Shown: positions 199-62,375 of the stretch, in pieces
Numbering within the stretch: the first letter of the stretch is position 1
Layout: each line of letters begins with the position of its first letter
Origin: Pempheris klunzingeri
Taxonomy: Eukaryota; Chordata; Actinopteri; Acropomatiformes; Pempheridae
Assembly: GCF_042242105.1 (NCBI RefSeq)
Contig: NC_092029.1
Location: 17,966,885 to 18,030,884 of the forward strand
DNA length: 64,000 nucleotides
Direction: 5' to 3'
Program-made: the position numbers and the translations under genes
The notes under the pieces: model-generated
The model's database searches: none
What the model was told of the DNA's origin: nothing
The model's input: the letters and a program-made list of their open reading frames with translations, nothing else

Positions 199-2637
199 CT
201 TGAGTTTGAGCAGAGCCTCGGGGGTCATGAGGTTCATCTTCCTCCACATCTCCTCGGAGTTTCGGTGTTTGGTGGCTTCCATGATGATGTCCTTGTAGCT
301 CAGCAGGGCTGCTTTGATGTCTTTGACCAGCAGGGACTGCAGGGTGAACGTCAGGTCCAGGCCGATCTCAGTCAGATGCTGGCAGTGCTCCTTAGCCACT
401 TTAACACACTCCGCTGCCGTCGACAGGCTCTCCTTACTGTCAAACACCTGATGAAGACAGAAAATTCACTTTATTAGGATTTTTTTAGCATCATTATGCG
501 TTATGCTAGTTTCTCAGAGTCTCATCCTTCACCTACCTGCTTGCTGAAGGCGTCCACAAACATCCTCATGGCTGATCTGGACCAGACCACGAAGGCGGAG
601 TAGCAGCCGGTGTTCCCCGCAAAGTCCATCTCAAACTCCTTGGCCGTCTCCAGCAAGCTGGTGAAGAAGATGTTGCAGAGCTTGTGGATGTAGAGCAGCG
701 TGGCTCCCTCTATGCGCAGCTGCCGTATGGCCGTCTGGACGGCGGCGGCGCGGTTCTTCAGGAACAGCTCGCAGGCCTTGGTGGACTGGCCTGCAGCACA
801 GAGAGCAGTTCAAGTGGGATGACAATATTAGACGTAATGCTGTGAGACAGGGGCAGGTGGTTCGCAGTTTATGCTCCACATCTGGACATTTTCTAATCAC
901 ATATATGGTGTTTATGGATTATTTATGGATGTTCTTGACTACATTTTAAAATATGAGCGTGTAGCACATCATAATTTAAAAACATTTAGAACGTAAGTTG
1001 GGGAGATAAAGATTTCTGGAAAATAAATCTGAACTTGAATCAATAAATAAAATGTGAAATATTGTGAATTTTGTGAGTTCAGTTGGTGGCAAGTCAATGA
1101 CGTCCACCTTAGAGGTTCTGCTGGGACTATCTGGACTCACAACCTCAGTATTTCTAATCTCCTGGCTGTGGTGTGTCTCGTGTTTTCTGCTTTTCACATT
1201 ACTGTTGCTTTTCCATTAGCTTCCTCTGTCAGGATGCTCCCCAGCTGTGATTTTAAAACATCATACTTAAATGCTTCACTTGCACGTTTTAATAGTTGAG
1301 TCTGGTCCAAATGAGCCCGTTTATGTCCTGCATTTTCTTCACTTTAACCGCGCTATACTATGCAAAATACTTTCTATATCGCCATATTTTGAACTGTGAT
1401 GTTGTGCAACTGCAGAAAAGGCAAAGTCGGCTATTTTGCTGATGTGTGAGGTGCCATCAGTGAGGACAAGAAACATGCTAGGACCTAGTCTGATCAGCTG
1501 GGACACGGCCCGCCGGGTGGCTTTAGGACCTCCGCGAAGTGACCGATCTGGAGACAACTCGAACACCAGAACCTCCGTCAGCTGCCGCACCCGCTCTTCC
1601 ACCTTCAGCCTCAGCTCTTTGACCCTCTGGGTGACCGGCTGGTCTTTGAGGTACTCGTTGAGCTTGTCCAGCAGGTCCACGGCGCCCTCGAAGTCTCTCT
1701 GGGCGATGCAAACGTCCAGATCCTCCGGCAGCTCCTGGATCCACTCCAGGCTGAGGTCCACGCTTTCCGCGGCGTCTGCTGGCTCGTCGTCGTCGTCCAC
1801 GTCGAAAGGATTGGTGGACACCTCGGCCCTCACAGGAGAAGTGGGGACCTCCTCCTCTTTCTTATGCTTGTCCTTGGTTACTTTGTTCTTCTTGGTCTCG
1901 TCCAGGATCTCCAGCCACTCCTTCTTGATTTTGCTGTTCTCCGCCTGGAAGATGCGGCTGTCTGGGAACATGAGGATCTTGAACATGTCCTTCATGGGGG
2001 GGTTGTCCTTTACGTTGACAACAGCAAAGCTCTCCAGGTCATACAGGGCGTTGTATTTATACTTCACAGTCCCTCTGCGGTTTGGCAGCCAGGTGGCGAT
2101 TAGCAGACAGTCGTTCATGAGGAAAGCGTGCACCTTCTGGATGGGGGACATGTTGTCTACATCAAACTCCACAAGGTCCCCATTGTAGACTAGGTGTCTC
2201 CCTGGGGTGTCCATGATGTTTTTACCCCCCTCCACTTTCTCCAGCAGTGAGGTGAGCGTCCTCTGCTTCACCTCCTCTGTTTCTTTGGGGAAAGCAGCCT
2301 GCATCTCCTTAGAGGTCTCATCCTTGTCTGTGGACAGCAGGGCCTGGGTGATGCTCTCCATGATGCTCTTCTGCTCCGTCAGGATGTGGCTCAGCTGGTA
2401 CATCTCGCTCTCCAGGTAGGAGATCTCTTTGGCCGTTTCGATGAACTGTCTGTAGTTCTTGTAGACATTTTTCTTCAGGTTCTGAGCCGTTTCGTCGGCC
2501 AGGTTCTGGATCTTTTGACGATGCTCCTGCAAATCTCTGTCGCCATCGGACTGCTGCGACAGCTGCTTAACGTAATTTTGTGGGTCGAAATTAGGCGATT
2601 CGAGCAGCTTCCGTAGTCGGCTCCCCGTTTCCGACAT
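199..2637 (-). CDS. exoc8: Exocyst complex component 8 (Exo84), 3' end beyond the window
   Basis: This encodes the Exo84 subunit of the exocyst, which tethers secretory vesicles to the plasma membrane and binds Ral GTPases through a PH domain. Coding exons on the minus strand are 2637-1485, 790-537 and 447-199. They join in frame to 552 residues of a protein of about 720, so one or more 3' exons lie left of base 1. An N-terminal coiled coil covers roughly residues 15-110, the PH domain roughly 145-250, an acidic stretch follows near 275-290, and the helical Exo84 C-terminal region starts near 296. Exon 1 ends at SQLIRLG and continues with QSTKACE in exon 2, matching the mammalian protein. Without splicing, the first frame runs into the intron and stops at 1339. 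Mammalian EXOC8 is a single coding exon, so these introns are notable. The intron 1 donor (GTCCTA) is weak. The start ATG at 2637 gives the family N terminus MSETGSRLRKLLES. Confidence 0.95.
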
Positions 2638-3637
2638 CTTCTGTCGCGTGCGGGTTTACTTATTTATCCGAAATGTTGACAGATTAGTGACAAATGTAGA
2701 CACAAGAAGAGTTCATCGATGACTCCCTGTTCACATCCGCTTCCAACCTAAACAGGAAGTTGTACACTGGTTGACACCCTGAATAGTCACGGGAATGACA
2801 AAATGAGATGGCCAACAATCAGCATAGGACGAACATTTTAAAATTAAATTCGTCCATTCAAATGAGTCAGATTTGTTCTTCAATTATAGCACTTAATACT
2901 AAAGCCTTTTATCAGATGTTATTTGCAGTAAATGTTTTTCTTTTTATTACTAAACTAGAACAGAAAATTCCCGAGTTAGTTTTAGATTGGCCAACCACTT
3001 GAAATTGAGAGGACCACAAACCCCAGAGTTCATTTCTCTGTTTCAAACGAGCGGAAGTATCGTCAAGTTTGAGTTATTCAATTCGAGAGCGGAAGTGTTG
3101 TAACAAGGACCTCATATCATGTCACAACGATCGAAAAGCATTAATGTAGTGTATTTAACAGAACTACAAATTATTGTACTTTGGTTGTATAGAATATGCA
3201 ACACAAAAGGGGATAAAACAACTGTATTAAGCACACACTCCACTCTAAAAAAAAACAAAAAAAAAAAAACAGACGGCCATAGTTGTCGTTTCAAGAATTT
3301 TACTTTGAAATCCTCAACGGATTTTCTTTGGTTGAATTGTGTTAAACTTTACAGAAGAACCGTTGGCGCTAGCTGTGAACTGACTGTCTGAAAACATCTT
3401 CGTCCAACATGAAGCTAGTTAAGACGTAAGACGGGAATCATGACACAAATCCAAGTGTTTTTAAGGACAGTAATATCTGACAGACTGTATTCAGGCTCCG
3501 GAGATCCTGTCACGTTATGTGAGAGCTCTGTACATGTTATGTTAGCTAGTTAGCTTTAGCAGGATAACGTATACATTAGCTAGTCTACGTGGTTAGCTTC
3601 CTCAGCTAACGTCACCTCCTCCGCCGTTTCTGTTGAC
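2638..3637. promoter_or_regulatory. Shared intergenic promoter region of exoc8 and sprtn
   Basis: The two genes are transcribed away from each other across 1.0 kb. ETS/GABP-like GCGGAAG(T) cores lie at 3051-3058 and 3089-3096 on the plus strand and at about 2737-2744 on the minus strand. An A-rich run is at 3245-3270. No TATA box is placed convincingly. EXOC8 and SPRTN are also head-to-head neighbours in human, which supports an old shared promoter region. Transcription start sites cannot be fixed from the sequence. Confidence 0.5.
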
Positions 3638-6600
3638 ATGGACGCGGATCTACTGCTTGCCATTCAGCTACAGGAGCAGTTTAACAATGAATACGACACG
3701 TCAGTATTTTCTGCACACGGACTTGTAGATAATGACTTCGGACAAAGTAGCAAGAAACGCAAAGTGGAGGTAGCCGGAGGTGGCAGCGATGTTGTCCCCT
3801 ACTGGAAGCCGGCTGCTCAACCTGAGAGGCCCATGTCCATCGTGGACGAGTCATGGGAGATGCTGGACCCCAATCCGGATGTCAGAGCCATGTTTCTGGA
3901 GTTCAACGACATGTTTTTCTGGGGGAAACTCAGCGGTGTGGAGGTTAAGTGGAGCCCAAGAATGACGCTGTAAGTCACCTGCTATGTTTTTCTTGTGCTG
4001 TCAAAGTCCAAAACCACACTGACCTGTAGTTAAGTGCAGTTATGCCTTTACTGAAAACAAAATTGTCTGATTTTTGAATGGGGTTTGGTGTAACCATAGG
4101 AGAGAAGGGGCTGTGTCACATACTGCAGTGACATGCTTTGTTACCACATATGGTATGGTGTTTAACATACTGTAATATTAAAAATACAAGCAATACATTA
4201 TGCACAGAAACAAAATGTTAAACATCTGAAATACAACACATGCATTCAGTAAAAGATAAGAAAATTATGAATGTACTAATATGTGAAATAGTTTGGGATG
4301 CAGGGGAAGGATGGAGGTAACTGTCAACAAACATCAGAGGTGTGATCGTTTCAGTGTCTGTCTTCCTGTCTTTAATGTCTCTTCCTCTCCCTACGCTTTT
4401 CCTCTAGATGTGCCGGTGTGTGTTCCTATGAGGGCCGAGGCGGACTGTGTTCCATCAGACTCAGCGAGCCTCTTCTGAAGCTCAGACCGAGAAAAGACCT
4501 GGTGGAGGTGAGGTGGACGCTTACACCCATACTGCTTTTCCAGAAGGCCTTTAGAATATCTTGTCAAATTCATCCCTTATAACTAATAATCAAAATATTT
4601 CAAAGCTTTTAATTTGCAGTAAAGACACTTGTGTCCAAACAGTGACACAAACTGTTCCAGAATGATACTGAAAAGAGACTACACAATTGAATATATCATT
4701 TACGACCTCTTTACATTGGTAAAACCGCTCATTATAAGGCTTGAAATGTGTATAACCAGTTTACTAATAATGAGATTAGAGGTCAAAAACATTACATTCC
4801 AAATGCATGAGAAAAGTATCAGATTAGATCTCATAAAATCCACCCCAAATTCCTTTCATACATAATAGTAACTGTTTTTCCCAAGTCCCGGCTGTGTGTC
4901 AGTGTGTGCGATTGGAGCTGGAAATGCAAAGAAAGAACACACATTATTCTTTGGACAGATTTCCCTCGATTCATGTTTATTTTCTTGTTTCCACAGACTC
5001 TCCTTCATGAAATGATCCACGCGCTGCTGTTTGTGACCCAGAACAACAGAGACCGAGACGGTCACGGCCCTGAGTTCTGCAAACACATGAACCGAATCAA
5101 CAGCGCCAGTGGGACAAAAATTTCTGTAGGTTTGCCTTGTATTGCAAATTAGGCAGCATGGTGGTGTGGTGATTAGCACTGTTACCTCACAGCAAGAAGG
5201 TTCCAGGTTCTGGCAGCTTTGTCCTTTCTGTAGGGGTTCCTCCCACAGTCCAAAGACGTGTGATTGACACAGCCTTTTACAAAGATTGCAAAAATAAAAT
5301 AACCCTCTGAAACTTCTCTCTGTTTCCCGCCCTCTCGTCAGGTCTACCACAGTTTCCACGACGAGGTCGATGTGTACCGGCAGCATTGGTGGAAATGCAA
5401 CGGGCCCTGCCAGAGCCGTAAGCCCTACTTTGGCTTCGTGAAGAGGGCCATGAACCGGGCCCCGTCTGCTCTGGACCCCTGGTGGGAGGACCACAGGAGG
5501 ACGTGTGGGGGGACCTACACCAAGGTGAAGGAGCCTGAAGGATACGGCAAAAAGGGCAAGAAGGATGGTAAAAAGGACGGGAAGAGCTCAGAGAAGAGGG
5601 CCTCAGGAAATGGAAAGCCTTCCAGCACCACTACAGGTGATGAGCCGGTTCCTCTGGTGTATGTTCTGCTGCTGATGTATGTTCATCTTCATTATTTTAG
5701 TATTTTTTCATGGTTGGTATTCTCATGATTAGGATTAGGTCACATGTATCTTTTCTTTAGATCGCAGATGTATATTTCTTGTTATGATAATAAGAAAACA
5801 AAAGACCTCTTTCCCCTTGACTTTTCTGCCCATATTTAAAGGAATGGTTCAACATTTTGGGAAATTCTTTTATTTGCTTAATCACAATTTGTCAGTTTTA
5901 CGCTTCAGTGTCGATCATCTCATGAAACTCACAGCAAATAAGTAAGTGTGTTTCCCAAACTGCTGAAATATTCCTTACAGGCAGATATCAACATTTTTGA
6001 ATATTTTAGATGCAGAATGCAACTCCATAAATCAAGTGAATTCTACCACGTGTTTTAGAGAATCCTGCTAATGATTTATTCAGACGTGAACGTTGAACAT
6101 CTCAAAGAATTTCACTCTAATTTGCACCTTTTTTTCCTCTCAGGTTCTGGATTACAGGACATAAGGAACATTATCCCATTTAGTGGCAAAGGATTCCTGC
6201 TGGGAGGGTCACAGTCCTCCACGTCTTCCTCCCCAGCTCACAAACCAGCAGTGCCTGTTGCGGGAGCATCCTCGTTTCCCAACTCCCCAAACAAACCTGT
6301 CACCCCTTCATCTCCAGCTAAAAGCTTCACTTCTCCCATTCGCTCCAGTCTGGATAACAAAGGACTATCCAGCTCCTTTCCCTCCATCAAACCTGCTACC
6401 TCCACGGGGCAGAAGCCGCCTGTGAAGAGGTCTGTCAGTAACACGAGGGTTTTTGTCAACATTAACGGTTCTCCGGTGAGAATCCCCAAACCCCAAGGCA
6501 GCAGCAGTAGCCAGGAGGCAAATAAAAGCAAACAGAAGTCCATTGAGGACCTCTTCAGCAGCACAGGTCTCAGGAAGTCAGTGAGTCAAGCCTCCACCTC

Positions 6601-7168
6601 CAACACCGAAACCAAAAGAGACTCACTGACATCACCAAACAGCTCTAACTCTGCTTCCTTCTTTCCTAAAAAACAAAGTAACCATCCAGCTTCCTCCCCC
6701 GGAACATCTAAGCCCAGTCCCAGTAAATCCAGCAAGTATCCTGCTGTAGTTTCCACAGGAGCCAAAGGCAGCCCTGCGAAACCAGCACAGTCCAAGTATT
6801 TCAGTCATTCTAATAGTGACAGTGCATCGGGGGCTGCCGGAGGGGGTCAGGCATCGAGGAAGAGGCCGTGGAACGAGAGCAGCGGCTCAGCCAGCATCTC
6901 TGACTTCTTCCAGAGGACATTAGGCAGCGATTCAGCAGCGCTGAGGGAGTCGGCAAAGACAAAATCACCTACAACGCAGCAAAGAACTGCCACCGCCACT
7001 GCCTCTACGTCCTCCCCCCATTCCTCCTCAGGACCGCACACTTTTACCCCCTCCTCTTCCTCCTCCTCCTCCTCCTCCTCCTCGGCGCTGATGGTCAGCT
7101 GTCCTGTGTGCCAAGCGAAGGTGCAGGAGTCAAAGATCAACGAGCACCTCGATTCCTGCCTCTCCTGA
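3638..7168 (+). CDS. sprtn: SprT-like DNA-protein crosslink metalloprotease Spartan
   Basis: Spartan (DVC1) is a replication-coupled protease that degrades proteins crosslinked to DNA and recruits p97/VCP and PCNA. Exons 3638-3969, 4408-4507, 4997-5125, 5342-5636 and 6144-7168 join in frame to 626 residues. The SprT-like domain covers roughly residues 60-255. Its zinc-protease motif HEMIH is at residues 148-152, a downstream HGPEF segment follows, and a Cys-rich zinc-binding part contains CNGPC and CGGTY. A basic KKRKVE (39-44) looks like a nuclear signal. The SHP box for p97 binding (PFSGKG) is at about 297-302. QKSIEDLF (416-423) fits a PIP box for PCNA. A UBZ4 finger (CPVC..H..C) ends the protein. 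Human SPRTN has 489 residues; the extra length here is in the Ser-rich disordered tail, including a poly-Ser run coded by TCC repeats at about 7050-7083. The ATG at 3638 gives the conserved acidic-leucine start. Confidence 0.96.
5153..5268 (+). repeat. SINE-like dispersed repeat in sprtn intron 3
   Basis: The segment beginning GGCAGCATGGTGGTGTGGTG and ending near CACAGTCCAAAGACGTG matches a very common fish repeat that I recognise by its wording. The TGGTG-TGGTG-ATTAGC block resembles a pol III A box and the GGTTCCAGGTTC block a degraded B box, so a tRNA-derived SINE is plausible but unproven. It appears 5'-complete and 3'-truncated. Confidence 0.5.
5836..5978. mobile_element. Short TTAA-type inverted-repeat element (MITE) in sprtn intron 4
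   Basis: The left end TTAAAGGAATGGTTCAACAT and the inverted right end near TTTCCCAAACTG...ATTCCTTA form imperfect terminal inverted repeats around a 143-base unit. The left copy keeps TTAA; the right copy reads TTAC. The same family has a cleaner copy at 18830-19037. It has no coding capacity. Confidence 0.65.
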
Positions 7169-12201: not shown

Positions 12202-13803
12202 GTACAGCACATGCTCCTCTTTTGCCGAAGAATGTGTGTGATGCTTTTGTGTGTTGATTTCAAGGTTATTGTTGTGTTATTGTTGTGATGGGGCTGCAGG
12301 CCAGCGGGGGCGGGAAGTGAAGCCCACCATCTGTCCTTTATGCTCAAACTATTGTTCTGCAAACACACACACACACACACACACTCCTGTCATGACCCCA
12401 AACCCTCTGTCTGCACTCTGCTGGGGAAAATCCATCAATTGGTTTTATTGTTAAGGATCAAATGAACACGATCCTCCATTAAACCAATAGGCTGACGTTT
12501 AGTGTAATGCTAAAAGGTATCGACCGTTCATGTTAACAGCCAGTAAGATTGACATCATTCATGTTATCTAACAACAAATATTAAAAGGTCATGAATTCAG
12601 TTCCCTTTCTTATTCAATAAACATGAATGAATTATAAGTAAGAGCAACTACTCCTTTATGCTGATGATATTTGAGTATTTAGTGCTTCAGGTGAAGTCAT
12701 GTTTATTTGGATTTGGAATGTATCACGCTGCTTCAACTGGAGAGAAAGTGTGCATCCATTTCTCTATATTTTAAATGTGATAGCCAAAAATGTTTTATTC
12801 AAAAAGGAATTTATGTGTCCCATCTCTCATCTCTTGTCTCTGTTTCCAATTAATTATGTTTATTACTTATTACTTACTTTATTATTATTATGTTTGGTTC
12901 TGGTGTTTAAACGATAAAGAAATAAATATAATGTGAAATTAAACTTTACATACATTTAAAAAAAAGACAGTTTTACTGTCTCAAGTGCTGGCAGGGAGAC
13001 GCCCAGCATCCACTGTGTTAAAAGGACAGGAAGCGGATTTATTCCAGCATCGTCAAGTGTTCAGCAATTGATGACAGCAACAACACAAGTTCAAATTCAA
13101 AATAAAAGCAGATTTTTTAAATATTATTATTTTTTCTGTAGGCTGTACTACAAAGCATATATTTTCAGTTCTGATCCGATTGGTTGTCCAGAGCTAATTC
13201 TGCTGGAGCCCATGTCAAGATTTGTATGTTGTCATTGCATGTGTTGTTTATTTGTCCGGTGGTTTTTCCATTAGGAAAAAAAATCTGGTTATCATTATCA
13301 TTATTATTTAACATTTAGGATTTAAATATCTTTATGGGACTGTGATCAACATGTTGCATCCTTAAAATGAAATGCATATTACATGAATGTTACATTGGGA
13401 AACCAATATGCCGATCTGACAATGACTCAACAAGGAGAATTATGTTTGTGTTATATTATTTATGTCATGAAATGTAAGGAAACTCAGGGCCCACAAATTA
13501 CATTTTAAACAAACTTTTATTTAAATTTTAAGTAAAAAAATAGCTTTAATAAATTCCCAACACTTATGTGTTCGCCTTGATGTTTTTATTTTGATACTCA
13601 TACCGGAAGTTCAACGCCTTGATTCCGGTTAACTTGACGTGGCGTCGCTGGCCGCCTCGGGCAGAGAAAACCACGGCTGTTGCTCGGTGTGTTTGGTCTC
13701 GGAGACGTCTGTTAATTCTCAGCGTTTGCTGAATTTAGGGACTAAACAGTCAACTTCACAGTGAACACTAGCTTTTACTCTTCGTTTAGTAACTCACAGG
13801 ACA

Positions 13804-16044
<2,241 letters not shown>

Positions 16045-52634: not shown

Positions 52635-55292
52635 ATGGCTGAGGACGTGAGCGCATCTCAGGAGACTGTAACAGGGGCTCTGACTCTGTTGGTCAGTTTG
52701 GGGAAAGTCCTCCTCCAGGAAGCCAAGCGGGAAGCAGAAGGTAGGGCCGACGTAGAGGGAGGACGCGCTCCGAGCGCCAGACCTCATTAGATTTTTGGTT
52801 GTTTTAATATATTTTGCATGCAAAAAAGTTAGAAACTTGTAGTTTTAGGATGAACTCTATCTAGGAGCGAATTGTGTTGGTCTCATGAGTAATTCGGCGT
52901 AGAGTAGATATAAAGTAGCTTTATGTGCATACAATTATTTAACATAACATAACCGTGATCCAATAATAAAAAATAATACTTTACATTCTTGTTCCTACAT
53001 ACATTATATGTACGCCGAATTGAAGAATAAATCAGATGAGTTCGGGAATAATGTTAAATTTAGTTTAGTTTAGTAACCTTTCTATTACTGGAGTTCAAGT
53101 TCAGGTTCAAGGTTCAACCGGATATCCTTGTTATTGGGTCCCAGCTGAAGCAGCTGTCAGCCAGTGGTTTCCTCCCTCTACCTGTGAGGCCTGTTGATGG
53201 TCTGATTGCCTTAATAAGGGTTTGTGCTTTGAACAAGGCATCACCAAGCTTGTCCAAGCGCGGTTCATCACCTCAGAGACACAGAGAAGATCAGTATTGG
53301 TTATCCGCAGGGACTGATGCTCATGCTGTCCTCTCCTCGCACCTCGATTACTGCATCAGCACTTGAGCAAACCATTTTACAGACAAAAAAAAAACCTTCC
53401 ACAATGGCCTGGATCCAGTTTATATCACAGATCTTTAGTCCCCCATGATCCCTTGCCTGGTGTGAGGTCCTTGGACAGAGGTCTTCTGTGTCTTCCAGAG
53501 TCCTGGCTGACATCTAAAGGGGACAGAGCCTTTGCTGTCTTTGTTGCTTTTACTGTAAAACACTTGTTTTGCTCCATAATTGCTGCATAACTAAAGTTTA
53601 GTTGAGGTCTGTGGCTCCGTTTTCACTATGTAGGATGAAACTCGCAAACCAGTTGAAATAAATAGAGAGATACATTTGCTATCCCTCATTTCACGAGGAC
53701 AGGTGTTACACTCGGCCACGTTTTTCACAGCTATCATGTAATATGAGTATAATTCACAAGTCTCCTTCTGTAAAATTCATAAACCGGCCATATAACACGT
53801 GATTCTCGTGAGGCGGTAAAGCAGGTCGAGTCACTGGATTAAATGGCCCTCTGGCACGAAGGCGGTGTAATGTAATCCATGTCATGCTTGTTGCCAACAT
53901 TGCACAACGTTGCATCAATCAGAATGTATCTGACTTAATGGCCCTTTGTTCTCACACAGACTCCCTGGAGAAGTTTGTCCCACATAAGATTGCAACTTTA
54001 TTCGGCCTGATAGGAGCCGGAACGCAATTCTACAAGAGGTGAGGGTCCGGCACTGGCCACAGTGTGATTCAGTTCATCTGCTGTTGACCTGTATTACACA
54101 AAATGTTACTATATTTTTATACTGCGATACACTTGTGTGTGTGTGTTTTGTTACTGTCGAGCAGCCTTGGAGTGAAGAAGAGGAGCGAAGCAGAGGCCGT
54201 TTGGCAGAAGTCTTATCAGTAAGTATGGGTATATAATGATAATACCTGTATATCTTATTGTTATATTGGCAAAACCATATGAACTAAGGTGTGATCATGT
54301 GAATGATCTGAAGCTTGTTGAGTGGCAGTTAATTGACATGCCAATTGTAATAAGCCTGGGAATAATGGCACAAAGCTTTTGCCTGGCTGGTATGTGTTTG
54401 GGGAGCTGTTTTTTTTGGGGGGGGGGGGGTTCACAGGTTTCTAGAGGTCTTCTGTTCCTCATTTCAATGGATAATTGTCCTCATTCCCTCCTGCATGTTT
54501 GTCATAAGACATTATAGGGATGCGTTACAAGTTTATAAGTTACTTTGTTTAAACCTGCACTAAGTGCCCCCCCCCCCCGCCCCATTTGCATTTAACAAAC
54601 AACCCAGTGGTCCCAAAATACTTTGCTGCATGACAGTACTGATGAACTTCACCGTCAAAAAAATGTAATACAGGCGAAGGTGACCCGCCGTTAAGACACC
54701 AGCCGATGGGTGTCGGATGTGACGTCATCGTCTTATTAGCTCTGAAGGGAAGTGAAACCTGGTTGTCGGCACTTTTTCATCACACAAAGTTTGTGTTTTT
54801 CCAGCCATGCAGCGGTGAGAGAGCAGGTAGAGGAACTTCTGCAGCTGGAGGTCTGTATGTCCGGAAGCCTTTTTGCTTTTTTAAAAAAATGTTTCAGGAC
54901 CTAAATTCAGCTCTGATTTTTACTTTGACTTAAAATTCAAATTCTCTAGTTTTTCTTCTACTCAAAAACATAATTTTATAGAATGTGTCCACATGGATTC
55001 CTGCAATAAAACAATACCACCTGCCAGTACATCGTCTCTTTATGAGTCTGTGGCATTAAAACATTTGATAAAATCGGCGTAAACCAGTAAAAGTGATCTT
55101 GTTTGATTGGAAACAAGAACACTGGATTAGATCTTTTCTATTTTCTTATACATTAGTTCACTATTGATTCATAATGCTTAAAGGAATCACAGATTTATGG
55201 GTCTTTACTTTATGTGTTGATTGATTTGTTTTTTGTATTTAGTTAGTGTCTTTAAACTAGTCTGTGATTGCCGTGATGCACTGGGGCTTATG

Positions 55293-55326
<34 letters not shown>

Positions 55327-57939
55327 ACTGAGTGGGACTCCTTCCTGGAGAGCGTGGACAAAGGTCTGCAGACAACAGACAGACAGCTGTCAGGAGCAAA
55401 GACAGCAGACAGCCTGAGTCCCGACTCTGCGTTCACAGATGGACGGAGTGGAAAGTGAGTTCACATCCTCATCTTGCCTGTTTGTGTTCAAACCACCTTA
55501 ATCAGCCAATCAGACCGTCCAGTTCAGGCTCCAGATGCTAATGAAAAACCACGTTTTGGTGGCTCTTTAATTCAGTGATTACGTTTTGCTGTGCAACAGC
55601 TCGATAAATCAAGTTGTGCTGCGTCATTGAGGATTTTGTTCCCGTGCTGTGCGTCTAAGGAGCGTGACTCTGGGTCAGTACCTGGGTCAGGGTCAGAAGC
55701 TGCTGCTGGTTCTCATCAGACACTTCGGATGACTGCCGTGACGAGACCACGTGGCCGAGCTGGAGGCCAGTCAGGTCAGTTTAGCCCCCCCGAACTGATG
55801 GTAGTTATTCAGCTGTAAGGAAACAACTTTGAATCATTCCAAACTGTTACGTCTCTCTTCACACAGTGCTTTTTGTGTTGATTAAGCAACAGAGCTTGCA
55901 TCTCTTGGTGGTCGAGACCCCTCTAAGATCATGTAGTCATTCTCTAGACTTTTTTTTCCAATCTTTGCTTTTGCTTTTCTTCAACTTTTAGCAAGAGAGC
56001 AAACCATTTCCCAAAATGTTGAACTACTCCTTTAACCGTGTGCGCTCTAAAATCATTTTTCTCTGCTCTGGCTACATCCACTTTCCATTTTTTGCAGCCA
56101 CCACCCATTGACTTTTATGCGAAATGAATTACTGACAGCTGAACAAAAGCGTGTAAAAGTGATTTTAACAGATCCCCAAGAAGCAAAAGTAGCTTTTAAA
56201 CAGGATCCGTCGTTCGCTTCGTCTCTCCGCAGGCTGCCCTGCAGGCTCGGTCAGTGCGGGTCTTGGTGATTTCTTTTGGAAGTGTGGAGGGAGCTCAGCT
56301 GTGGATGGAGCAGACTGGATGTACCTTCGACTTGCTGCTGGATCCACAGAGAAAGGTCAGGATGTGAGCCGGTTAGCCGGTCAAACGGCTGCAACCCAGT
56401 ACATTTCAGTAACATTATGAGGGACGAGACTGGTTTTACAGTGGATCAAATCTGTGCATCGGTTGTATTGACATACGTGTTAATTCATAGTCAGTGCCGG
56501 TGGGCAGGTGCATAAAGATTAAAGAGGTAACTATAAATTATGGAAAAGAGAGATGGCAGTGACTCAGTACAAACAGGCTGAGGGAAGCAGAGGATTTAGC
56601 AGTTGTTTGATGATGTGTCATGAATTCCCAGCGAGCGGAGCCTCCAAACCACCAAGTCACCCACCAGATGTTAGCAGATGTGAGGTGGAAACAAGGGCAC
56701 TCTACCAAATATGAAGACAGGAGATTTTCCACATGCCATAAAGGCAATCATCCGTCATGGTGCATGGTGTGTGTGTGTGTGTGTGTGTGTGCGTGCGTGT
56801 GTTTAACACTGCTAAATCCAAAGTGGATGTTTTGCCTTTCCTTGTGCTTTTGATGACATAAAAGTGCTAAAACGTGGTTTCAGCAGAAAACAGTGCACTC
56901 CTCCACTACAGCGGATGTCGTCTCTGCCACAGATATACAGGAGTTTTGGCCTCGGCTCGTCCTACGCCAAGGTGATGAAGTTTGGCTGCCTGCTGCAGTA
57001 CTCAGAGTACGGAGCGGTGGACAGAGACTTCCCTGACGTCCCTCCTCACCTGCTAGAAGATATCTACCAGGTACAGATGGACGACTTCGATACAAACACT
57101 TCGATGGAGTTGCTGGAGCCCTTATTAACTCCTCGTTACGCCCTTTCACTGTGCTGTGAATTGTAATTCTGCCGTTCCAGATTTAAAGAAGAGATTATTG
57201 GTATTGCAGAAACTTTCAAAAACGTCAGACCTCAGATCTACAGTGCATCTTTCTTAGTGATGAAAAAGTCAGAAGAACACACTGTGTAGTGCACTGAAGG
57301 GGGCCCCATACTAACTGTTACACCACCAAGCGGCATGCTGGGTACAGCTTCCTCTCTGTCACTTGCTACACTACATTCAGGCACGTTTTTCTTGGTAGTA
57401 GATCAATTATCAGTCCTATTCTGTTTGTTTTAGGATAAAACTTTATATGTATTTTTACAACTCAATCTCAACATGAAACAACATACTGAAGTTCTTGGTT
57501 ACAGTTTGATGCACTCGTAGATTTTCTTCATTTGTTGTAGTGAATAATACTTTAGTGCTCAATAACAGACAAAGTCAGACAGTCGCTATCCAGTCAAAAA
57601 TCTGGTCACAACAAGGCAAATGTCATTTCTATAAGTCACGACTAGATCGTCTTACATACTCAAAACCAGTTGTACTTTCACTTTAGTAAATGTTCAGCCC
57701 ATAAAACAAAAACAAGGAGCTAAAAGAGGCTAAAATAGAGCTGCACATTTGACTCCATGCTAGTATAGAAAGTGTCCAATATTGCGGCTTTAATACGTTG
57801 TTATTTTTTTCAGATGGGAGGTGACTTTCTGCTGGATGAAGCAGGGAAGGTCCTTCTCTCTCACGCCAGTAAAAACCCTCTGGACAGGCCGACTGTGAAG
57901 GACCTCCTGCAGGCCGGGGACCCTGCATGCAGGCTCTAA
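52635..57939 (+). CDS. selenol: Selenoprotein L with U-L-P-U redox motif
   Basis: Selenoprotein L is a thioredoxin-fold (peroxiredoxin-like) protein of aquatic animals with two selenocysteines in a UxxU motif, reported to form a diselenide. Nine exons join in frame to 304 residues: 52635-52740, 53960-54038, 54165-54218, 54805-54850, 55327-55454, 55660-55774, 56233-56355, 56933-57070 and 57814-57939. The only in-frame UGAs are codons 162 and 165 in exon 6, and both must be read as Sec. The coding frame, splice phases and protein similarity run uninterrupted on both sides. Residues 1-135 form a helical N-terminal region. From 138, SVTLGQYLGQGQKLLLVLIR is the thioredoxin-fold strand leading to UxxU, followed by VRVLVISFG, DLLLDPQRKIYRSFGL and GGDFLLDEAGKVLLSH, as in AhpC/PRXL2-type folds. 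A SECIS candidate follows the stop. A standard gene caller would stop at 55730 or skip exon 6. Confidence 0.93.
53300..53590 (+). pseudogene. Non-LTR retrotransposon ORF2 relic in selenol intron 1
   Basis: Broken reading frames carry HLDYCIS (about 53331-53351) and, further on, LVPHDPLPGVRSLDRGLLCL and SKGDRAFAVF. These phrases are typical of the C-terminal end of fish LINE reverse-transcriptase ORFs. Frames shift between the pieces and several conserved segments are missing, so it is inactive. The clade is not assigned. Confidence 0.7.
55295..55323 (+). repeat. TG microsatellite forming the selenol exon 5 acceptor
   Basis: About 14 TG units run straight into GCAG at 55323-55326, and exon 5 starts at 55327. 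The repeat replaces the normal polypyrimidine tract. Confidence 0.9.
55730..55741 (+). other. selenol: UGA-CUG-CCG-UGA: two selenocysteine codons
   Basis: The in-frame UGAs are at 55730-55732 and 55739-55741, separated by Leu and Pro codons. They sit exactly where thioredoxin-like proteins have CxxC, after the strand LLLVLIRHFG and before RDHVAELE. Frame is fixed by exon 5 to 6 splicing (AA|G) and by the phase-0 exon 7 that follows. Reading them as stops would remove the second half of the conserved fold. Confidence 0.93.
55968..56035. mobile_element. Right-end fragment of the TTAA MITE family in selenol intron 6
   Basis: The segment ending CCCAAAATGTTGAACTACTC then CTTTAA matches the inverted end of the MITE at 18830-19037. 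No left end is found nearby. Confidence 0.6.
56767..56800. repeat. TG microsatellite in selenol intron 7
   Basis: TG units with a few GCGTGCGTG interruptions, about 130 bases before exon 8. Confidence 0.9.
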
Positions 57940-57985
57940 GTGCTTCCGTTTTTTAATACATCACTGACACCACAGAAGAAGAGCG

Positions 57986-58069
57986 GCTCTTTGGCTCACG
58001 TTTATGACGTCACGTCTCGCACTCATGGCGCCATGAAGAGGTGTGACCGATGCAGAACGCAGAGAGAGC
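57986..58069 (+). ncRNA. SECIS element candidate in the selenol 3' UTR
   Basis: About 47 bases after the stop, a hairpin shows the SECIS plan. The quartet is AUGAC (58004-58008) opposite CGAU (58048-58051), giving U-U, G-A, A-G and C-C. Helix II is a 10-bp stem, GTCACGTCTC (58009-58018) with GAGGTGTGAC (58038-58047), containing two G-U pairs. Helix I pairs CGTTT (57999-58003) with GAACG (58055-58059), and GCTCTTT (57986-57992) with AGAGAGC (58063-58069). The 19-base apex holds a small CATG/CATG stem, and the usual 5' AA is not obvious; GCACU is in its place. All pairings were found by eye. Confidence 0.75.
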
Positions 58070-58575
58070 AAAGGCAACTGATCTTCTTTGTTGTGTCAGT
58101 GTTGTGATGGGAGTAATATTACTTACAATCATATTCAATATGAATTTTTATGTAATCTAATACAAATGTCTTTTTATCTACTCTGATTTTTACCCAGATC
58201 TGTAATATATTAGACAATGTGGCATTTCCTAAGGCTTTACTTTTGAAGCTGCATTTTTAGCATCTTTGGGTTTTTGGCGGCCCCAAGTGGCATTGACAGG
58301 TACTGCTCTGAATCAGGAAACACAAATTCCTCCATTACCCAGAAATCTTGCAACACGCTGTTCCCACTACCTACCTCATGAAACTTTTTCTTTTTCTCAA
58401 AGTGGCTGCAGATACATCGTTAGATAAAACGGCACTTTGAGTAGAGACAAAGATCCAATTACTGCTGTGTCACAGATCTGATCGTTTCACGTCTATGCGT
58501 AACATAAGCACATTATTTGTCATGAACTGTAAGCAGTGGGATGTTAAAACCCCTCAGGGTGTCATTTCTGACGAG

Positions 58576-59292
58576 TAGGGCTGGGTATGAACCCGCAACG
58601 CCTTTTTATTACTGGCTGACATGTGGCCACAGCACTGAGTTACAGAGCGGAAAATGTCCAGTACCAAAAACTGATCTGTTCCCGATTTAAAGGAGCAGTC
58701 AGCGAACCAAGTCCAATACAATATCAAATATCTCCCCATGATTTGCCAGCTATTTGTTCTGCGTGCGCTCTGAAGGGGGAGCGAGGGACAGTACGCCTGG
58801 CTCAAGCTAAATATCAACAATCCTAAAAGTTGATGGCGACACCTTTAACCCATAAGAACCTTAAATACCTTAATTTTTGTTTTTAAAAGGTACATTTCAA
58901 ACACTTTTACCAATTCTAATACTGTCCTAGGTTACAATTAACCTGTCCTGACCATATTTTACGTATATTTAACATTTCAGATCTTGCACTGTAGGGATAG
59001 TATCTCTAAGATAAGTTCAGAAGTGTGTTCCTTGTGGTCCATTTAGTCTGTTTTATATCCCCCATAATTCTACTTAAAGGAGAAATGGGGGCAGGTTCTT
59101 ATGGGTTAAAGCAAAATCTTTCCAGCTGAAGTTTTTGTACAGTTGCGTCAACATTTAATATCTTACTTGAAGACGGGTTCAGAAAACTGTGTCTACATTC
59201 CTCGATGTAAGCAAGTGTCAAAAAACAATGACTTGGATGTTGAAACCGAACCTCAGATATTGTTTTAACTCTGTATCCACCGCCCAGCCCTA
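58576..59292. mobile_element. hAT-like MITE downstream of selenol
   Basis: The ends TAGGGCTGGG (58576-58585) and its inverse CCCAGCCCTA (59283-59292) are bounded by 8-base near-duplications, CTGACGAG (58568-58575) and CTGAGGAG (59293-59300). Eight-base duplications and this type of end fit hAT elements. There is no coding capacity. The 717-base length includes a second element inserted at 58849-59105. Confidence 0.75.
58849..59105. mobile_element. piggyBac-like MITE nested in the hAT-like MITE
   Basis: The left end reads TTAA-CCCATAAGAACCT and the right end AGGTTCTTATGGG-TTAA, a perfect inverted repeat with TTAA at both sides (58845-58848 and 59106-59109). CCC...GGG ends at TTAA targets are the piggyBac signature. 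The 257-base unit is non-coding. Confidence 0.8.
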
Positions 59293-60053
59293 CTGAGGAG
59301 GCAGATCGTTCCTTTACCTAATGAGCATTGATTGATCAGAAAGTGGTGCTGTAAACCATGTCACACTTTAGTAAAGACTTATGAAAAACATTTACATTCA
59401 CCTTTTTTATGTACAGTTTTCTCATTTTAGTGTAGGACTTGGGATACATTTACACACAGGGATGGTGTGTCATTTTTGGAGGGTGAAAGTGAGACTACAG
59501 TCTAAAAACTGTTTTAGCCACATATGTTGAAGAATCAACAGTTTAACGGGGCAGTCACACCAGACTTTGTTAATATATCTTCAAAGATCAGAGAAAGGAA
59601 GAAGAGGCACTGCCTAATTCCCGTTGAGCCCAAATACAGGTTGATTTATATCTTCAGGAGGTTCAGCATGTGCTCATTCTGGAGAAAAGTGTCTCCTGCT
59701 CTTCCTGTTTTCTCTTTTTTGGAAAACTTTGAACAAATATTTGACTCCCCCGGCGTGAAATCACATCAGAGTCCTGGCTAGTTTACATTCATATCACTGC
59801 ACCTGCATGAATAATGACAAAGTGTTATTCAGTACTTTCAGAACTTAAATAGCGATACATACATTTGTGCGCATTTGGGACATAAGGTATGTTTAACGCT
59901 AAGAACGTTAAAATGATACTGGCTATTTCTATCACAACACTCTAGGTTTCCTATGGAGGATTGAAGACTTCCTCACCTTTGAATACAACCAATCCAACTA
60001 TGCGTAAAGTGTCTTTTAAAGGGAAATAAGTTACTTGAAAATAAAACTGGACT

Positions 60054-60059
60054 TTTATT
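60054..60059 (-). terminator. Polyadenylation signal of clec11a
   Basis: AATAAA on the minus strand lies about 63 bases after the clec11a stop codon, in an A/T-rich 3' UTR. Confidence 0.55.
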
Positions 60060-60121
60060 CCTAAAGTTTAAGATACTACTAAGGAGGTGAGAGAGTAAAT
60101 CTATCTTGAAAAGAGTTCATC

Positions 60122-62375
60122 TTAAAGTGCCACCCTGTCGTCAAACTCGCACACATAGTTCATGGTCCGATCGCAGTAGTGGTCCCACCAGTCGCCGTCG
60201 TCTGACGACATGGCCACACAGTTCTCCCGCTTCCCTCCGTCCGGCTGGCTGGACAGGAAGTGTTTGCGCCACTGGAAGTACGAGACCCGTGTCCCATCAT
60301 CGAAGAGGTACATGCCCTCAGATCGCAGGTCGTTGATGCCCAGCCACACGGGCCAGTTCCCGGGGCGGAAGAATGACTTGATGTAGTCGGCGAGGGCCTC
60401 CTGCTCCTTGCGGTCGCGGGGCATTGCCATGCGGCCTCCTCGTTCCAGGCACTTCCTGGATGCTCCGGCATAGTCCTCATGGCTATTGTACACAAGATAA
60501 CATTTGTATCCCATTCTGTGTCCCTTTTGGCAGCCTGGGAAGAAGAGAAGAACAAGACCTATGCTTTAATGCATGTATAGAATGAAATAGCTTTCTATTT
60601 TTTTTTTAGTCCTTGTTTTTGCTTTTTGTGGCAATGGAAGCAAACAAGAAGCAGGGGAGGGAGAGAGGGAGTCTAAAGGTCACCGTCTGGAACCGATGAT
60701 GTCAACCAAGGCGGTCCTGAGCTAGAAAATGTTGACTTCATCAGCCCTGCAGTGGTTTTCCCCCCCCAAAAAAAGACAAAAAGGCCATTTCATCCAGTCT
60801 TAAAACCTGCATCAGCACTTGTGGGCAGTGCAACAAGCTGCAAACACAACAGTGACCCACTATCAGAGACAAGGTTAGCAAATTGTTGTTATTTTACGGA
60901 TGCAGAGCTTGATAAGTTCATTTAATTCATTTGAAGTCATGTTTGCAAATCCAATAATCACTGCTCCTTTTAGCTCTGTTTTGGTCTCCACCAACTCGCT
61001 AACTTTGTCTGCCATTTGGTGCAGCAGGTAGTGTACAGTGAGTTTTTTAGGAATTTTAAAACAGCTGCCTTCTGCTCCTAAAAACAAAGTTGATGAGAGG
61101 GGTGACACTGAACCACAGCAGAAACATTGTGGGCCATAAAACCAAAACAGTGAGTGATATTTGAGCTGTAAAGGCCCCATGTTACGCTCTTTTTAAGGCT
61201 CATACTTGTATATGGAGGCCCTACTATAATAGGTTTACATGGCTCAGTGTTCCAAAAACACATTATTTGCTCGTACCTGACATGGCTGGCGGAGGCCACA
61301 TGGTTCCTGTTATGACATCATAAGGGGAACCAAATCAAAAAGATGTGTTTTTACACACGTTTACTTAAAGGTGGAGCAGGAGAGAAAGAGAGATGATGGT
61401 CTTTACTCAGTTTGATGGTCTCACCACACCCCTGGGAGACATTTATATTGAAAAGTCATGAAGAAATACATTTTGCACAATATGGGACCTTTAATATGAC
61501 TGGTTTTTACAACCATCTTTCCTATGTGCACTAAACTGAACACTGATACTTCATCTCTTATTCTGTGTACGTCTACGTATTCACAGATATTAAGTGACCT
61601 AAGATTGTTATTTTTCTTGAACAATGCCCCAAATGGAGCATCTAGTAATGGCTTACATGTACAGTATGTGACATGCAGAGCGCCGTGCTTGAAAACAAAC
61701 AGATCGCCTGCGTCCTTTCACCCACGTGTCTCTGTCATCGTTTTTTTAATGACAACTCAGCATCAAAGAGATACCTTCCAGTCTTCCTATCTCCTTGCGG
61801 TTGTCCTTGCTGTGCTGGTAGACCTCCCGGATGCTGTCCTCCAGCTCCCCGACTTTAGCTGGTGTTAGTGATGGTGGGAAGGAACAGAAAAGACAAGGAG
61901 ACGGAGACTGGAAGTCAGTACACAATGTTCTTCAAGTTAAAGAACGTCGACACATTAAAACTCCTTTCTCAAGTTGATTACAGATTATTCTGATTATTAT
62001 TATATGATAATAAGGGTGCATGAAGATTTGTGGGAAGAGGGGGATCGTTTCACCATCCATCCGGGACAGACGGTCCATCAGCTGGCTGACTTTAACATCC
62101 AGGGTGTAGTGGCCAACATTCAACTTGTGGATGGCCTGGTCTATATTGGCTAGTCTGGACACTGAAGAATAGAGAATACAATACAATAGAATAGAAATGG
62201 GTATGCTGGAGTATAAAAAGAGAGGCAGAAGAACAGGAAAAAGAATCTGGGGACTCACAGACATAGTTGTAAGAGTTTTCAAAGTCTGAAACTGGGGAGG
62301 TTGGCTCTGGTTCAGGCTCTGGGAGTATATCAGGGACGTCCCCCCTCGCCTTCTTAACCTCTGGCAGGGATGCCT

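Follow-up and report, generated by a model that had tools for sequence, protein, structure and literature searches.

The plus-strand gene at positions 52635 to 57939 of the DNA stretch analysed here raises two questions: whether it encodes a selenoprotein L (SelL) whose two in-frame UGA codons are read as selenocysteine (Sec), and, if so, which RNA element might direct this decoding. The stretch (hereafter, the window) spans 64 kb and corresponds to C18:17966885-18030884 of a 646-Mb genome comprising 439 contigs. A preliminary description of the locus had proposed nine exons that join in frame only if UGA codons 162 and 165 are read through, and exon ends, junctions, and frame all agreed with this proposal in our analysis. 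Exon 1 (52635..52740) starts with the ATG at 52635 and is followed by exons 2 (53960..54038), 3 (54165..54218), 4 (54805..54850), 5 (55327..55454), 6 (55660..55774), 7 (56233..56355), 8 (56933..57070), and the coding part of exon 9 (57814..57939), which ends in TAA. When spliced together, they yield an open reading frame of 915 nt, that is, 304 codons plus the stop codon. All introns have a GT donor and an AG acceptor, the 16 splice sites are intact, and the two junctions that flank exon 6 (55454/55660 and 55774/56233) are exact at the sequence level. Exon 6 measures 115 nt and carries both UGAs (codon 162 at 55730..55732 and codon 165 at 55739..55741) within the peptide HFG-U-LP-U-RDHVAEL. 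These two codons are the sole interruptions of the frame, whose 304 codons are otherwise free of stops and frameshifts. In silico omission of exon 6 led to a frameshift and a 149-aa product.

The family assignment of the encoded protein points to SelL as well. In profile searches, for which Cys was written in place of Sec, the protein matched the NCBIfam model SelL_rel_redox (NF040769) at 169 bits (cut-off 120; E 7.4e-50), with residues 135-297 aligning to profile positions 11-172 of 173; when X was placed at both UGA positions, the score was 153.6 bits, a loss of ∼15 bits. The portion after UGA165 alone (residues 166-304) reached 121.5 bits against this model, still above its cut-off, compared with 17.1 bits for the portion before UGA162, which confirms the earlier claim that protein similarity extends past both UGAs. 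It follows from these split scores that both codons must be read through for the domain to be made, and that a stop at UGA162 would take away most of it. Pfam matches above cut-offs comprised AhpC-TSA_2 (PF13911; 2.8e-15), AhpC-TSA, and, barely, Redoxin, and residues 1-134 matched no family in the Pfam and NCBIfam searches, the edges of domain hits aside. By sequence, the best match among solved structures was the thioredoxin-family protein 3kcm (E 1.4e-05), whose CxxC aligns to the UGA positions. The AhpC-TSA_2 domain is one that we take to group with prostamide/PGF synthase and other PRXL2/SelU-type proteins, and the window protein indeed matched the prostamide/PGF synthase 9us9 (E 1.6e-4); yet the SelL subfamily model scored far higher than AhpC-TSA_2 (7.4e-50 versus 2.8e-15), which sets the window protein apart from that group.

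Relatives of SelL were also sought in other sequence collections. A tblastn search of the plasmid collection returned no match, and none of the two pattern matches in viral contigs was confirmed. In the genome-contig collection, one out of 94 pattern matches was confirmed, namely a Nitrospinota stretch with 35% identity over query residues 29-88 and a 277-aa frame without TGA, which was dropped as a SelL relative.

A further line of evidence comes from the same genome. Searching it with the SelL protein gave 13 matches, eight of them on C18 (the gene itself) and five on C13, where an intact paralogue is located at C13:19653208-19656296 (L036:3208-6296). This second gene likewise consists of nine exons and 304 codons with zero internal stops, its exon phases are the same as those of SelL, and exons 3-8 are equal in length, including the UGA-bearing exon 6. 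In place of ULPU, the paralogue has CLLC, with TGT and TGC aligning to codons 162 and 165, respectively. Together with the 3kcm alignment, these Cys codons bear out the previous placement of ULPU at the CxxC site of a thioredoxin fold. The two proteins are 47% identical over 303 aa (E 1.3e-100), with 72/161 identical residues before the UGAs and 67/133 after them, and the paralogue itself scored 131.8 bits against SelL_rel_redox. Over 298 aligned codons, the two genes differ at 117, 84, and 199 first, second, and third codon positions, respectively (67/47/115 before and 49/36/80 after the UGAs). The pattern is thus alike on either side of the UGAs, as expected of two coding genes.

Against this background, it seems to us highly improbable that the locus is a pseudogene, or that its UGAs are sequence errors or are removed by alternative splicing. 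Splicing to an in-frame AG at 55769 might, in theory, eliminate both codons, and the exon 6 acceptor reads AAG rather than CAG; however, the AG at 55769 lacks a pyrimidine tract, and exon 6 of the paralogue starts at the same place. Two TGAs that fall exactly on two Cys positions would be hard to obtain through error, and the otherwise uninterrupted frame speaks against a pseudogene.

As to the origin of the Cys copy, near-full-length deiodinase matches exist on both C13 and C18, which is why we considered the teleost genome duplication. When the 1669 frames of the window were compared with the 30 kb around the paralogue, seven matched: five represent SelL exon regions or their antisense, and the other two are weak (one at the first bases of the window, the other from an exon 6 frame whose match falls outside the gene). 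Since this comparison revealed no gene clearly shared between the window and those 30 kb besides SelL, we do not claim such an origin, and the duplication that gave rise to SelL and its Cys copy may be older than the teleost genome duplication. Among the matches listed for teleost SelL paralogues or Cys-containing SelL homologues of fishes, the available text of the publications contains nothing that obviously describes this copy.

Both the protein and its UGA arrangement resemble what has been published. Known SelL (Shchedrina et al. 2007, as described in PMC2397514, PMC3473315, PMC2398784, and PMC3316567) is a Prx-like protein of fish with two Sec that have two residues between them, and the same is true here. 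The family has been known since 2007. According to PMC2397514, SelL 'has a diselenide bond' and is restricted to aquatic organisms. The preliminary description had called SelL established but rare; the former holds, the latter in relative terms, given its reported presence in fishes (PMC3316567) and in five of the six invertebrates of one table (Table 1 in PMC3473315). Considering the family score, the exon structure, the paralogue, and the SECIS-like element described below, we have little doubt that the window gene, judged by its sequence, is a fish SelL with two Sec codons, and the identity put forward earlier is thereby supported. It is a clean new and otherwise ordinary member of a known family, to which it adds a SECIS-like element of non-AA type and a Cys-Cys paralogue, neither of which featured in the preliminary description. 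Presumably, the gene is already contained in annotated fish sets under the SelL name.

Reading UGA as Sec depends on the decoding capacity of the genome. A tRNA-Sec gene was detected at C4:11951003-11951088 (78.1 bits; cut-off 47), and TGA codons lie inside eight of 17 glutathione peroxidase (GPX) matches and four of seven deiodinase matches, where they putatively specify Sec. From the tRNA gene and these TGA-containing matches, we infer that UGA is read as Sec in this genome, as is usual for vertebrates. Besides, the tRNA-Sec model had nine sub-threshold matches (42.5-42.7 bits) at C12:19646152-19663512, a cluster that is probably an ordinary tRNA array.

Which element, then, could recruit the Sec machinery to this mRNA? 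With the Rfam SECIS models, no match emerged in the 64-kb window at the gathering score or in subregions of 8 kb and 1.4 kb at lax thresholds. A covariance model, R1, was built from ten SECIS-like elements of the same genome. These came from a whole-genome search with Rfam RF00031, in which 150 of 15612 candidates were scored, resulting in at least 14 matches, at least seven of them over the cut-off. The training set consisted of the nine highest matches (L002-L010; 31.0-40.3 bits) and the lowest one (L015; 25.6 bits), the SelL element not being among them; L011-L014 (26.9 bits each), almost identical copies of a repeat, were left out. Of the ten training elements, four (L002, L008, L010, and L015) adjoin GPX exons, and the other six were tied to no gene. 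Run without filters on both strands of the window, R1 returned 57990..58068 on the plus strand as its best match (18.8 bits; E 0.0035, a rough value), with the next two at 9.6 bits. This 79-nt SECIS-like element starts 50 nt past the SelL stop codon, in the 3'UTR. It has the quartet core and helix II, with ATGA at 58004-58007, CGATG at 58048-58052 (GATG at 58049-58052), and a helix of 10 bp between them. The core begins 484 nt after UGA165, which falls inside the 207-5207 nt range given for mammalian selenoproteins in PMC3316567.

To put the score into perspective, R1 was applied to stretches of 2.0-2.5 kb beside six GPX and deiodinase loci outside the training set (a seventh locus, the deiodinase at C13:7506254, was not included). 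Coding-strand matches were obtained at five of these loci, scoring 30.1 (L044), 21.3 (L042), 17.2 (L043), 13.5 (L039), and 11.5 bits (L040), whereas the sixth (L041) gave a maximum of 7.1 bits on the coding strand and 9.1 bits on the other. Beside the five control matches, the SelL element ranks third. Downstream of the deiodinase locus in L044, a second match (L044:712-781; 11.7 bits) lies ∼0.3 kb before the 30.1-bit one and exceeds the weakest control, so that R1 scores near 11-12 bits are not decisive. In the 10-kb locus of the Cys paralogue, R1 peaked at 9.0 bits, and no SECIS above background was found there.

These data bear on the possibility that the true SECIS resides elsewhere, for instance on a spliced-on 3'UTR exon, and that 57990-58068 resembles a SECIS by chance, in which case the SelL identity of the gene would still stand. 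The folding energy of the element is no better than that of shuffled sequences (z -1.11 and 0.20), its apical AA is missing, and 3'UTRs split over two exons exist for some selenoproteins (PMC3316567). Simple hairpin scanning is not specific: a relaxed scan of 57940-60500 retrieved the element with its core at 58004 and nothing else, but the same scan had 113 matches on the plus and 137 on the minus strand of the 64 kb, and hairpins at -14.4 kcal/mol or better numbered 15 and 17, respectively, including the SECIS-like element. Nevertheless, the element is the top R1 match of the window with a margin of 9 bits, shares the strand of SelL, and starts 50 nt past its stop codon, and a strict scan for the AA/CC pattern downstream of the SelL stop codon produced only a feeble match at 61496-61539 (-0.9 kcal/mol). 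A SECIS located elsewhere appears improbable to us. PMC3316567 states that a single SECIS in the 3'UTR serves both UGAs of known SelL; here, one R1 match stands well above the rest and constitutes the candidate for this role, although neither Rfam nor the folding energy supports it.

What sets the candidate element apart is its apical motif. Twelve nucleotides after ATGA, it has CAC (58020-58022), and hence neither an unpaired AA nor CC. In all 15 other elements (ten training and five control), AAA follows the RTGA core, at a spacing of 12 nt in 13 of them and 13 nt in two (L009 and L039). Because two RTGA overlap in L004, its spacing was counted from the ATGA register of the alignment. This tally is biased, as ten of the elements were found by a model that expects AA and five by a model trained on those ten. 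According to PMC3316567, vertebrate SECIS carry AA almost without exception, CC being confined to those of SelM and SelO in mammals. A CC-type SECIS has been reported for Ciona savignyi DsbA (PMC2874816). Like the SECIS of mammalian SelM and SelO, the SelL element combines a normal core with the lack of an apical AA, yet it differs from these in having CAC instead of CC and in occurring in a fish and in SelL. It also differs from known SelL in having CAC for AA, and in coexisting with a Cys-Cys paralogue, a comparison that covered this one genome. The AAR motif has been called essential for Sec incorporation, although ribosomal protein L30 still bound after its deletion (PMC3706390), and SECIS variations are on record (PMC8704476).

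Judging from the sequence, either the CAC element works or its strength was recently lost. Under the second alternative, the SECIS would be damaged and the UGAs would now act mostly as stops, leading to a 161-aa product or mRNA decay, with the Cys paralogue taking over and the SelL identity of the gene being kept. The CAC in place of the AAA seen in the 15 other elements, the near-universal AA of vertebrate SECIS, and the intact state of the paralogue on C13 would fit such a scenario. On the other hand, the SelL frame is undamaged, as are its 16 splice sites and the two UGAs, the SECIS has retained its core and the distance of 12 nt between ATGA and apical motif, non-AA elements are known from SelM, SelO, and Ciona savignyi DsbA, and a paralogue of 47% identity is not an obvious stand-in. 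Overall, we regard recent damage as unlikely, albeit a good deal less so than a SECIS at another site. That the CAC element supports both Sec insertions has, in our estimation, a roughly even chance. Equally balanced is our judgement of the broader proposal, in which a SECIS of a vertebrate, with CAC as a mixed apical motif, would direct the insertion of two Sec three codons apart while a Cys-Cys twin is kept in the genome.

We consider the following sequence of events to be the most probable. The nine-exon mRNA would give rise to a 304-aa Prx-like protein of the thioredoxin fold with U-L-P-U at the CxxC position, both UGAs being most likely decoded as Sec via the single SECIS in the 3'UTR. 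The element itself, with its normal core and helix II, in our view still functions, perhaps in a weaker form. By analogy to published SelL work, an intramolecular diselenide probably arises between the two Sec and may be used in a low-potential redox or a peroxidase-like reaction. The diselenide known from a redox motif is that of SelL, whose function in the organism has, to our knowledge, not been established. As this fish possesses UxxU in one gene and CxxC in the diverged paralogue, diselenide and disulfide chemistry could be compared within a single animal. Furthermore, a functional CAC element might account for the failure of a standard SECIS search, in this case with Rfam, to pick up the SelL gene, and it would imply that the apical motif of vertebrate SECIS is looser than the rule laid down in PMC3316567.

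Further observations were made alongside. The four sequences left out of R1 training (L011-L014, on C1, C10, C16, and C23) all belong to one dispersed repeat; their aligned pieces, which reach 1.7 kb, show 95.7-99.2% identity, and every copy has a SECIS_1-like hairpin whose 26.9 bits lie under the 35-bit cut-off of Rfam; the frames beside this hairpin are, we assume, ERV-like. In addition, we take the window frames at 1342-2655 (minus strand), 3584-3970 plus 6059-7165 (plus strand), and 13765-14181 (plus strand) to represent EXOC8, SPRTN, and FAM89A, respectively, presumably neighbours at human 1q42, and the frame at 60125-60565, downstream of SelL on the opposite strand, presumably resembles a C-type lectin domain.
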